From: Vibrio sp. CDRSL-10 TSBA | Lineage (GTDB): Bacteria > Pseudomonadota > Gammaproteobacteria > Enterobacterales > Vibrionaceae | DNA length: 64,000 bases | Direction: 5' to 3' | NCBI GenBank assembly: GCA_039696685.1 | Contig: CP155566.1 | Location: 1,612,001-1,676,000 of the forward strand | Part shown: positions 8,360 to 13,472 of the stretch, one piece after another | Layout of the letters: every line of letters starts with the position of its first letter | Numbering within the stretch: the first letter of the stretch is position 1 | Notes under the pieces: model-generated | Told to the model about the DNA's origin: nothing | Databases searched by the model: none | The model's input: the letters and a program-made list of their open reading frames with translations, nothing else | Position numbers and translations under genes: made by a program

Positions 8360-10374
8360 ATGAGTTTTACAGGTTTCTACACTACTATAGATAAAAGTAA
8401 CAATAAGTGGCTAAGTAGGAACCTTGCTGTGAAAGGAACAATAACGCTGCTGTTCACTTGGACGGGAGATTTGCTGAGTTTTTCTCCCAACGAATTTGGC
8501 TCATGCGGGCCTTTGTCCCAACTCAATCTCACTGCCACTGGTAGTGAAGAGCCGTTGGCTATTGAAGAGATACAGGCTTATTTTCCTTCTGTTGAACCCT
8601 TGCAGGTGACATCAGTGATTGATGGCATTTTCTATACCGGGATCATTTCAACTCTTAAAAGCACAGAGTTTCAAAGTCATCCTCAATTTCTGCTTCAGTT
8701 TCGAAGATACGGCACACCCCTCTGTTTTGCGTATCCAGCGCATGAAACACGTGCTGGATTGTGCCCAGATAGCCAGTTGGGAGTGGAATGTACAAACCGG
8801 TGAGACCCGGTTTAATGACCGCTGGGCGGAAATTGTTGGTTATCACCTTCCTGAGCTTGAACCGACAGATATCGATACCTGGACCAAACTGGCTCACTCT
8901 GATGACCTTAAATTGTCTCAACAGGCACTTGAGGCGCATTTTAACGGCGAGATTCCTTTTTATGAATGCGAAGTCCGCATGCGTCACAAAGACGGTCACT
9001 GGGTCTGGGTACGCGATTACGGGCGAATCGTTTCTTTCACGACGCAAGGTGAACCTGAATGGATACTTGGCGCACACATAGATATCACCGGTTATAAATT
9101 GATTCAGACTCAGAATGAACTGCTCAGTCATGATCTCAACATGATCATGGACTTGTGTCCGGCAGTTATTTACAAGATGTCTGCAGATGATGATGAACAG
9201 GTTCAGTTCATCACCCAGGGCGTCGAGGGGTTACTGAACTACCGCCATGAGGAGATTATGAACCGGGCGTATTGGTGGCGTAATCATATTCACCCTGAAG
9301 ATGTTTCTGACTATAATCAAAGAGTTGCAGAATGGCGTTCCCGGGGTGATGATTCGATTCTGGAATGTGAGTATCGTTTCCGTTGTGCTGATGGTCGCTA
9401 CATCTGGCTTGCCGATCGCGCGCGAATCATGAACTCTCATTATAGTCGCGGTCCGTCCGTATTGGGGTCAATCATTGATATCACGGACTTTGTATCATTA
9501 AACAACCATCTTCAGTCGTTAGCGAAAGTATCACCTGCTGTCTTATACCAATTTGAATACTTGCCGGATGGAAACCAGTCGTTTTCCATATGCCAGCCAG
9601 AAATTGAAGGATATGTTTGGCGTTACTCCAGAGGAAGCTGCGGTTGATTCTACCGCTGTTTTTGATGCTATTTATCCGGAAGATGTAGAGAGGGTGCGTG
9701 CCAGTGCTTTGCAATCTAAAGAGACTCTGGAAGATTGGAAATGCGAATTCAGGGTAGAGATTGACGGTAAATTGCATTGGTTGTATGGCCATTCTATTCC
9801 GACACCCTCCAGTGAAGGTAAAGTGATTTGGTCTGGCCAAATTATCGATATTTCTGAGAAAAAGGAGCTCGAGCTACAGCTTAAAAAAGAATCGACGACT
9901 GATGCATTGACCGGGGCGTACAATCGGCGTTATTTCATTCAAGAATTACATGATGAACTGCAACGTAGTGTGCGCGAGAAGCAACCTGTTTCGATTTTGG
10001 CTGTCGACTTTGATTTCTTTAAACAGGTTAATGATAAATATGGTCATGATGCCGGGGATGCTGTGTTGCAACAGGTCACTGGGCACCTGAGACAGCACAT
10101 TCGCCCTTATGACACTCTGGCCAGAATGGGTGGGGAAGAGTTCAATATTATGTTGCCTAACACTGATTATGCGTCTGCGCTGTCGATAGCCAACAAGTTA
10201 AGGAAGCTGGTGCAAGGCTTTACGGTACGTTATCACGGGCAAGAAATTAAAATTACCATCACACTGGGTGTCGCGACCAGTAGCAGCGGCGTTCAGGATT
10301 CGTTTGAGTTGTTGAAAGAGGCGGATCGTGCGCTGTATCGTGGCAAAGCCAGCGGTCGTAATTGTGTTCATTAG
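8360..10374 (+). CDS. Multi-PAS diguanylate cyclase (two +1 frameshifts)
   Basis: Cytoplasmic signalling protein of about 670 residues after repair. There is an unrecognised N-terminal region of about 120 residues. Three PAS/PAC repeats follow: the first contains ASWEWNVQTGETRFNDRWAE and ends LGAHIDITGYK, the second has VEGLLNYRHEEIMNRAYWW, and the third ends SGQIIDISEKKELE. A GGDEF domain ends the protein, with LTGAYNRRYF, DFDFFKQVNDKYGHDAGD and active-site RMGGEEF. An RxxD inhibitory-site motif (RPYD) sits upstream of GGEEF, so product inhibition by c-di-GMP is expected. Frame breaks are at the T run 8699-8701 (repair gives FLLQFEDTAHPSVL) and the A run 9572-9574 (repair gives LPDGTSRFPYAS). 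No clear ribosome site marks the start, so the N-terminus is uncertain. The signal sensed is unknown. Confidence 0.85.
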
Positions 10375-10527: not shown

Positions 10528-10543
10528 CTGTTTAAATGAACAG
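10528..10543 (+). promoter_or_regulatory. LexA-type operator 1 (SOS box)
   Basis: CTGTTTAAATGAACAG matches the CTGT-N8-ACAG consensus of gammaproteobacterial LexA boxes, and the surrounding inverted repeat extends to CACTGTT/AACAGTG. It lies 81 bp before the start of the 74-residue gene and just upstream of a TTGACT hexamer (10550-10555). Confidence 0.72.
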
Positions 10544-10575
10544 TGCTTCTTGACTTCCCATACTGCTTTACTAGT

Positions 10576-10591
10576 CTGTATGTATACACAG
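10576..10591 (+). promoter_or_regulatory. LexA-type operator 2 (SOS box)
   Basis: CTGTATGTATACACAG is a full CTGT-N8-ACAG match, centred 48 bp downstream of the first box. It falls where the -10 region and start of transcription would be for the TTGACT hexamer at 10550. The ribosome site of the small gene follows directly. Confidence 0.78.
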
Positions 10592-10608
10592 TGGTAAAGG
10601 AGGTGTTT

Positions 10609-10833
10609 ATGTTTTGGGATACACTCGAACGCGTCAACCGCCTGCGCCAAAAGGCGATGTCCGATCCTGAATTTATTGAGTCAGCAAAAGAGCATGAACA
10701 AACGCTCAAACAGGTTGAACAGGAGTTTGAGCCGCAACGACGTCGTAAACATGTCTCATCAAGCTCGAAAACGTTCGCAGATATTTATCAACAGGTTGAA
10801 TTTGGTAATCACTCAAATGACGTACAGCATTAA
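10609..10833 (+). CDS. Small unknown protein, probable SOS (LexA) regulon member
   Basis: 74 residues, starting MFWDTLERVNRLRQKAM. The start is fixed by a strong AAAGGAGG ribosome site six bases upstream. I do not recognise the family. The protein is highly charged, mostly predicted helix in residues 1-45 (many Glu, Lys, Gln), then a basic RRRKH patch around residues 44-48, a serine run (SSSSK), and a short tail ending FGNHSNDVQH. It has no signal peptide or membrane segment. Two LexA-type boxes lie in its promoter and a good terminator follows, so it is a monocistronic unit expected to be tightly repressed and induced by DNA damage. It does not resemble YebG, DinI or SulA. Confidence 0.75.
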   Translation: MFWDTLERVNRLRQKAMSDPEFIESAKEHEQTLKQVEQEFEPQRRRKHVSSSSKTFADIYQQVEFGNHSNDVQH

Positions 10834-10917
10834 TGATTGATACCTGTATGATGAAGTATTTTGTTAATTTGATAAATAAATCATCTATTTAAGATGATGA
10901 AAATTAAAGATATATAG

Positions 10918-10948
10918 AGCGCCATACTATAAGTGGCGCTTTTTTTTA
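10918..10948 (+). terminator. Rho-independent terminator
   Basis: AGCGCCA pairs with TGGCGCT around TACTATAAG, followed by eight Ts. It ends the small SOS-like gene. Confidence 0.88.
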
Positions 10949-11111: not shown

Positions 11112-12132
11112 ATGAGTAGTAAATTTTCAGGCTTAAAGTCGCTTATTTTAGTCTGCACATGCGCGTCGTTTATCATCGTTGGGTTTGCCTATTTCTTTTG
11201 GCGTGATGGCAAAGTCTCGTCATCTGCTCAGATGCCGACTATAACCATTGCGGTTTCTCAAACACCTCTGTCTGCACCATTTTTTATCGCCGACCAGTTG
11301 AACTTATTTGAGCAACAGGGGCTGAATGTTGTGCTGGTACCCTGCAGTGGCGGCGTGCAATGTGCTGAGGCACTGTTTTCCGGAGCAGTCGATTATGCGA
11401 CAGCATCAGAATCGGTTGCTATGTTCAAAAGCTTTGAACGCAGTGACTTTGTTTTGCTGGCCAGTTTCGTCAGCTCCGATAACGATTTAAAGTTGCTGAC
11501 GGTTCCCAACCGTGGAGTGTCCAAGCTCAGTGATTTAGCCGGTAAAAGGGTTGGTTTGGTAAAGGCCAGCGCGAGCGAGTTTTATTTTGACTCCATCCTG
11601 ATTGCTAATAATCTTAAAGAAATGCCGCTGGAAAAAGTGTATTTGAGCCCCGATCAACTGAATCAGGCTCTGTTTGGTTTTAATGTCGATGCCATCTCGG
11701 TTTGGGAAACCGTGGGGTTATCGCACAGAAATGACCTCTGCTTCTGACTTAATAAATTTAGGTGTTGTAGGAATTTATAACCTTTCTTTTAACCTGATGG
11801 CGATGAAGGAGAGTGCTCAACACTCAGCGGCGCATTCAGTCGCTTTGCTGCAAGCGCTTAAACAAGCGATAGCCTGGATACATGACAATCCAGCCGAATC
11901 AAGGCAGTGGGTGGCTAAAGATTTGAATGTGCCCATTCACCAGCTTGAATGGTCATGGCAGGATTATGCGTTCCGACTTTCTTTAGGGAACGCGCTATTG
12001 TCTAATATTCAGCTTCAGGCTCGATGGGCGATTGAAAATAAGCTGGTCAAAGGGACCCTTCCCGATTACCGGAAATATTTTTCATCTGAACCACTTGAGC
12101 GGGTGTTGCAGACAGAGGTGTCTTTTAAATGA
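11112..12132 (+). CDS. Membrane-anchored NMT1/ThiY-like substrate-binding protein (one +1 frameshift)
   Basis: About 339 residues after repair. An N-terminal hydrophobic segment (residues 9-27) works as signal or anchor. Then comes a periplasmic-binding fold of the nitrate/sulfonate/taurine/thiamine-precursor type, with ITIAVSQTPLSAPFFIADQLNLFEQQGL, CSGGVQCAEALFSGAVDYATASES, and LAGKRVGLVKASASEFYFDSIL. The frame breaks at the A run 11707-11709; removing one base restores ISVWEPWGYRTEMTSASD. The gene overlaps the next GGDEF gene by four bases (ATGA), and no transporter permease or ATPase is present. I infer that it delivers ligand to the neighbouring sensor rather than to a transporter. Confidence 0.8.
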
Positions 12133-13472
12133 TTAATTCTGTCTCGCGTAAACTGACTTTATTATTTTGTGCCACGGCCATGCTGGTGGTTTTAATTGCA
12201 GTTTCACTCGACAATCTGCATCAGGAGCAAGATAACACCCATGAAGAACTGAAACAGATAATGCGGATCCAACGCAGCGTAGACATGCTTCGCAGCCAGT
12301 TATGGATATTTCTGCAGTACGATGACGCAAACAGTCTGGAGCAAGTTTACATTGCTCAGCAAAATCTGGCGCAAAAATTAGCCAGTCAGTCCGGGCTCTC
12401 CACTAACATCAATAATCTGACGCGCATGAATGACAGCCTGGCGGCGTTACTGGAGAAAGAACGCGCTCTGGGCCTGGGTCTTAGTGAACAGCACAGGAGT
12501 AGTGCATCTTTTATTGGTTCCAGTGAGCTTCTTCATTCCAGGTACAACATGTTGGTGCAGGATATGACGGAAGAGCTGCTTTACTTGCAAAAGGTCGTGC
12601 TTACTCAAAGTGCCGATAATCAACATTCATCATTAATGCTCAGTGCGATTCATTTATTGGTGTTTGGCATCGTGGTCTGTGTCGTTGCATTTTTAATTCT
12701 CAAACGGGTGAAAGCGGGTTTTGCAGCGTTTAAAGAGGGCATTACTGAGCTGGCGCAAGGGGATTTGTCCAGTCAACTGGTGTTAAAACAGCAAGATTCT
12801 GAGTTTGTTGCCCTGGCGCATTTCTTTAACAGAATGAAAGAATCTTTGCGAAATTCGATTGTCACGCGTGAGGAGTTGCAGCAAGAGGTCGCCAGACAGA
12901 CAGCTAAGCTTGAACAACAAAAAGAGCAGCTGCGATTCCTTTCGGAAAAAGATCCGCTGACCGGTATGTTGAACCGCAGAGCGTTCAAGGAGCATCTGCA
13001 CGAGGCCATCGTGCATGCCCAGCGTACACAAGTTAAACTGGCGGTGCTGTTTATCGATCTGGATAAATTTAAAGAGATTAATGACAGCAAAGGGCATGAT
13101 GTCGGTGACGAAGTACTGACGCAAATCGCGACCAGGTTGGAAGCGAATATTCGTGAGTCTGATTTTAGTGGCAGACTGGGCGGTGATGAATTCGTGGTTT
13201 GTCTGAATTTAATCAAAGACTTTGAGGGTGTTGCGGAAAAAACACAACGGCTGATTAAGCAGTTGAGTGCGCCTATGGATATCGGCGGAGAAAGCCTATC
13301 GGTTGGTGTGAGTATCGGTATCAGCCTCTATCCTGACCAAAGCCAGGATATCGCTGACCTGTTACGTTTAGCCGATGAAGCTATGTATCAGGCGAAATTA
13401 ACCAGCGGAAGCCATTTTTTTTGTCCGCAACTGAAGTGCGACCGTAATTTCGATGGCTCTCAACTCGGATGA
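12129..13472 (+). CDS. Transmembrane diguanylate cyclase with periplasmic sensor and HAMP-like linker
   Basis: 447 residues as read. Membrane segments lie at residues 8-25 and about 175-195. The periplasmic part between them is helical, and a HAMP-like and coiled-coil linker follows to about residue 265. The GGDEF domain contains DPLTGMLNRRAFKEHL, FIDLDKFKEINDSKGHDVGD and active-site RLGGDEFVV, with an RESD inhibitory-site motif. It makes c-di-GMP at the inner membrane. Coupled translation with the upstream binding protein suggests a two-protein receptor, as in NspS-MbaA of V. cholerae. The C-terminus is doubtful: after GSHFF a run of eight Ts (13415-13422) precedes an atypical tail. One base fewer would end the protein at 13430s with VRN. 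Confidence 0.86.
   Translation: MINSVSRKLTLLFCATAMLVVLIAVSLDNLHQEQDNTHEELKQIMRIQRSVDMLRSQLWIFLQYDDANSLEQVYIAQQNLAQKLASQSGLSTNINNLTRMNDSLAALLEKERALGLGLSEQHRSSASFIGSSELLHSRYNMLVQDMTEELLYLQKVVLTQSADNQHSSLMLSAIHLLVFGIVVCVVAFLILKRVKAGFAAFKEGITELAQGDLSSQLVLKQQDSEFVALAHFFNRMKESLRNSIVTREELQQEVARQTAKLEQQKEQLRFLSEKDPLTGMLNRRAFKEHLHEAIVHAQRTQVKLAVLFIDLDKFKEINDSKGHDVGDEVLTQIATRLEANIRESDFSGRLGGDEFVVCLNLIKDFEGVAEKTQRLIKQLSAPMDIGGESLSVGVSIGISLYPDQSQDIADLLRLADEAMYQAKLTSGSHFFCPQLKCDRNFDGSQLG

Follow-up and report, generated by a model that had tools for sequence, protein, structure and literature searches.

Which gene stands behind a pair of LexA-type operators in this Vibrio genome, and what might its small product do? 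Within the window, by which we mean the whole 64,000-base stretch of DNA analysed, the gene is very probably the orthologue of unfB (VC1368 in V. cholerae, VP1428 in V. parahaemolyticus), a member of the Vibrio SOS regulon that LexA represses through a double operator. The locus comprises the following features.

10528-10543, + strand: distal LexA box CTGTTTAAATGAACAG; exact match, matrix score 20.4, rank 1 in the window; position kept in homologues
10550-10555, + strand: -35 hexamer TTGACT, read from the sequence; TTGAC recurs there in most of the homologue promoters shown
10572-10577, + strand: inferred -10 hexamer TAGTCT, aligning with TATACT/TATGCT of most homologues
10576-10591, + strand: proximal LexA box CTGTATGTATACACAG; exact match, matrix score 17.5, rank 2 in the window
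10596-10604, + strand: ribosome-binding site AAAGGAGGT, read from the sequence
10609 (ATG)-10833 (end of stop), + strand: probable unfB orthologue, intact, 74 codons plus stop, from translation; 163 of 196 Vibrio genomes have a homologue
10916-10942, + strand: hairpin with T tail resembling an intrinsic terminator, after unfB, from a terminator scan
11112-12132, + strand: gene for an NMT1/THI5-like periplasmic component (VC1369 counterpart), split between two overlapping frames of the assembly
12129-13472, + strand: GGDEF-domain gene (VC1370 counterpart)

The original prediction had described two CTGT-N8-ACAG boxes 48 bp apart, start to start, with TTGACT between them, followed by a ribosome site and a 74-residue gene, and each of these elements was verified in the sequence. 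The distal box lies upstream of the -35 hexamer with a gap of 6 bases, the -35 and -10 hexamers are separated by 16 bp, and the last two bases of TAGTCT are also the first two of the proximal box. A sigma-70 scan did not call the unfB promoter because this -10 hexamer is weak. Scanning both strands for terminators returned two, against a mean of 0.3 in shuffled sequence. According to the proposed mechanism, two LexA dimers, one upstream of and one across a sigma-70-type promoter, would keep unfB shut; following DNA damage, RecA-driven cleavage of LexA would free the promoter and UnfB would be made. Like the periplasmic component gene (11112-12132), an upstream PAS/GGDEF gene (8360-10374) is split over overlapping frames; assembly indels and real decay are both possible for these splits, and the assembly is 95.9% complete in two contigs.

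The two unfB boxes are the only exact CTGT-N8-ACAG matches in the window, where 0.81 would be expected; however, two or more matches also arose in 20 of 100 window shuffles, which would fit boxes that are chance matches and makes the exact-match count weak when taken alone. Across the genome the exact pattern occurs at 69 places, compared with 41 in the control. The weight of the boxes comes not from their count but from matrix quality and conservation. A LexA matrix was built from ten sites that precede SOS genes elsewhere in this genome, with unfB excluded, and against it the unfB boxes scored highest and second highest of all positions in the window, the next position reaching 12.5. The matrix drew on 17 own-genome regions picked by eye for good-looking boxes, 11 of which were dropped; the remaining 6 precede SOS-type genes (recN, recA, uvrA, uvrB, uvrD and a SulA-like gene) and gave seven sites, while lexA contributed three, one of them (at -105) doubtful. 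Because its sites were hand-chosen, the matrix leans to the consensus. Together with the conservation of the boxes at fixed spacing across homologues, and with the binding of LexA to the V. parahaemolyticus unfB promoter described in the available part of PMC3323433, these ranks make a chance origin scarcely credible. Two looser searches were rejected as giving no discrimination: the pattern CTGTATATANNNACAG with 3 mismatches matched the window 24 times against 9.94 expected, and a degenerate 18-base pattern allowing 2 mismatches matched the genome 199/207 times against 167/162 in a reversed control.

Conservation was analysed in 187 Vibrio genomes (153 + 10 of the 163 with a homologue, plus 24 first met in the family-level sample), and at least one box preceded the unfB homologue in 142 of them. 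Among the first 177 loci, 133 carried at least one box with no more than one mismatch and 105 an exact box; a pair of boxes spaced 47-52 was found in 80, with both boxes exact in 44. By comparison, 1805 random stretches from the same loci yielded 43 with a box and none with a pair, using a spacing bracket of 45-66. In the last 10 genomes, two boxes were present in nine (spacing 27-28 in seven, 52 in two) and none in one. All 57 named loci, which were gathered with peptide patterns that do not pick up Splendidus-type proteins, were boxed, 38 of them with a pair. The arrangement is not uniform: a group with single boxes, bearing the names V. harveyi, V. owensii, V. jasicida and others, retains the proximal box but not the distal one. 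Outside Vibrio, a second genus, whose protein is in one case identical letter for letter to that of Enterovibrio coralii, has an exact box at 7 of 7 loci and a pair, spaced 61-62, at three, and a further genus has a box at 1 of 3 loci. Matrix rank in the source genome and box conservation among homologues thus bear out the earlier proposal of a double operator on a tightly LexA-controlled SOS gene, for which conserved paired boxes and scoring with a Vibrio LexA matrix had been suggested as checks. Boxed unfB is present, for example, in V. anguillarum, V. ordalii, V. coralliilyticus, V. proteolyticus and V. nereis, species not chiefly known as human pathogens. Given such cases, a remark made in 2012, in the accessible text of PMC3323433, that unfB with a LexA site is present only in human-pathogenic species fails.

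The gene had been called unrecognised, a description that gave way once its neighbours were compared with those of relatives. In V. mimicus and V. metoecus, two close relatives of V. cholerae, and also in V. furnissii, the gene downstream of the homologue encodes a periplasmic component and the one after it a GGDEF protein, as in the window; identity to the window protein (P0001) is 64% for V. mimicus and 56% for V. metoecus. The order unfB - periplasmic component - GGDEF was found in the window and at 8 of the 57 named loci, the neighbours at the other 49 being different. Since the published order is VC1368 (unfB), VC1369, VC1370 (PMC5963079, as excerpted), this synteny marks the window gene as very probably unfB, with orthology to VC1368 itself resting on synteny in relatives and homology and being probable on those grounds. 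The name unfB, and the binding of V. parahaemolyticus LexA to the VP1428 promoter by EMSA, come from the available sections of PMC3323433. Those of PMC5963079 report that VC1368 was induced 16.0-fold by mitomycin C, the kind of transcriptome evidence the original prediction had asked for; that it is co-transcribed with VC1369-1370 by read-through; and that the unfB mutant is UV-sensitive, whereas with mitomycin C the tatABC mutant alone was significantly more sensitive. A search of the open-access literature for VP1428, unfB and VC1368 found nothing beyond these two papers. The SOS gene unfB itself is therefore already known, published with function unknown, and what is new here is its genus-wide spread, the fixed double operator and an apparent single loss of LexA control.

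Homologues were found in 163 of the 196 sampled Vibrio genomes, in 170 of 296 genomes (3 of 13 genera) of a family-level sample, and in 17 of 295 genomes of an order-level sample, where Vibrio was the only one of 99 genera represented. A profile search of a protein collection returned 113 proteins; the names seen included Vibrio, Enterovibrio and one Aliivibrio, and one match lay on a 1,063-base contig of a MAG labelled Alteromonas. With the exception of that MAG, the family looks confined to Vibrionaceae, judging by these sequence samples. A divergent paralogue type (MLKDRLE-N-ALRKQAMKS) occurs without LexA boxes at loci L195, L196 and L298, the first two being second unfB-type copies in two genomes. 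Automatic annotation called the family members P0086 and P0093 'membrane protein involved in colicin uptake' and 'FtsZ-interacting cell division protein YlmF'; both labels look unfounded.

The 45 unboxed genes among the 187 genomes comprise 44 of one type, here called the Splendidus type, and one of the paralogue type (L298). All 44 unboxed proteins of the first 177 loci start with MIW and contain FLDSA, a motif found in none of the 133 boxed ones. Among named proteins, the Splendidus type corresponds to those labelled V. gigantis, V. crassostreae and V. chagasii, species of the Splendidus clade. In a quick tree of 155 proteins, whose 74 columns resolve few forks, the 27 distinct MIW/FLDSA proteins formed one group (SH-aLRT 84). 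The recA gene keeps an exact CTGTATGAATCAACAG box in 9 of 9 sampled Splendidus-type genomes, and thus the loss concerns unfB and not LexA. The simplest reading is that LexA control of unfB was lost once, in the Splendidus type. At the place expected for the distal box, the Splendidus-type promoters of loci L160, L163 and L167 carry the inverted repeat TGAGATCGCTATCTCA, and those of L165 and L168 a copy one base off.

The product had been described as a small, charged, basic protein; it is small and charged, but with a net charge of -2 and a pI of 6.1 the window UnfB is not basic. Over 122 distinct family members the median charge is +1 (range -4 to +7, 76 positive), and none of these members has a hydrophobic stretch. 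Among 78 diverse members, residues N10, R13 and H29 are invariant and R8, V9, A16, F22, A26, Y60, F65 and H74 nearly so. AlphaFold2 placed helices at 2-18, 20-40 and 56-61 with an uncertain linker before the last (mean pLDDT 74.5, low pTM of 0.37), the hairpin being confident with block means of 81-91. The linker between hairpin and C-terminal helix is charged and variable, while the helix itself is short and conserved, with the consensus K-x-LADIY-x-Q-x-EF. UnfB is accordingly predicted, from the model, to be a small soluble protein made of a two-helix hairpin, a linker and a short C-terminal helix. Searching P0001 against Pfam and NCBIfam yielded nothing beyond DALR_1 (E 0.083) and PRK14986 (E 0.043), each well short of its cut-off, so the earlier view that the protein is not YebG, DinI or SulA agrees with the absence of any such family-model match in these collections. 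PHROGs gave no match for P0001 and weak, scattered ones for the family, with at most 4 of 78 members per PHROGs family and a best E of 0.0018. A PDB sequence search reached a best E of 0.55, and Foldseek of the model against the PDB gave no match at E <= 10.

Three roles were offered in the original prediction, and each is at odds with part of these data. A second SOS cell-division inhibitor beside SulA would suit a small SOS-only protein under tight double repression, and the 87 of 196 Vibrio genomes in which SulA matches weakly or not at all might seem to leave room for one, although such absence calls are unsafe because the SulA-like ORF of the source genome surfaced only via its LexA box. 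That ORF (L199:458-850, minus strand, 131 aa), with an exact LexA box ahead of it, matches PF03846 at E 2.8e-4 and 21.5 bits, just under the 23.1 cut-off; at E <= 0.001 the model matched in 109 of 196 Vibrio genomes, 96 of them over the cut-off, the source genome not being among them. Its presence weakens the proposed role, PF03846 is not among the Pfam matches of UnfB, and many genomes carry both an UnfB homologue and a SulA match, which leaves a division inhibitor quite improbable. The related idea of UnfB as a replacement for SulA was rejected, given the SulA-like ORF in its own genome and the unreliable PF03846 absences.

In E. coli, DinI and RecX modulate RecA or LexA cleavage, and SOS control of a small soluble protein predicted to be helical would be compatible with UnfB doing likewise. 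However, neither DinI nor RecX domains were found in P0001 with the Pfam and NCBIfam models, and DinI is an alpha/beta protein whereas UnfB is predicted to be all-helical; we consider this role unlikely. An SOS-induced toxin would account for tight repression and a strong ribosome site at so small a gene, but the family lacks the hydrophobic stretch noted above and has no constant partner gene: among ORFs of at least 110 codons, the commonest neighbour family is found at 20 of the 57 named loci, and no constant neighbour points to a partner for any role. Moreover, the unfB mutant is UV-sensitive (PMC5963079, in the part available), and the product therefore protects; a toxin is highly unlikely.

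Our best guess, a tentative one, is that UnfB acts as a non-enzymatic adaptor that would bind a repair or replication protein and aid survival of UV lesions, possibly through a binding motif at the C-terminus together with a polar patch that is conserved on the hairpin. A bolder and more doubtful possibility is that UnfB is the founding member of a class of SOS effectors in Vibrionaceae, small adaptors for the processing of UV lesions, and that the Splendidus type freed the gene from the LexA regulon yet kept it. If so, Splendidus-type unfB would now be made without damage or under another regulator, and this type would offer a natural experiment on the purpose of placing unfB under SOS control. 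The gene is among the few function-unknown SOS genes for which a phenotype has been published and whose operator is broad and well conserved; as one lineage apparently dropped LexA control of unfB while keeping it at recA, both the function and the reason for repression become testable.

Compared with known systems, UnfB is like SulA in being a small LexA-repressed SOS product, but there is no sequence match (PF03846 is absent from the P0001 Pfam results up to E 10) and the genome encodes a SulA-like protein elsewhere. In E. coli, DinI and YebG are small single-gene SOS products of LexA-controlled promoters, a likeness that UnfB shares, whereas it has no match in Pfam or NCBIfam and a predicted helical hairpin. 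The closest counterpart is unfB as published, a LexA-controlled small hypothetical gene with the same downstream genes in the V. cholerae group; the available portions of the unfB papers describe a LexA site, whereas here a double operator surrounds the promoter.
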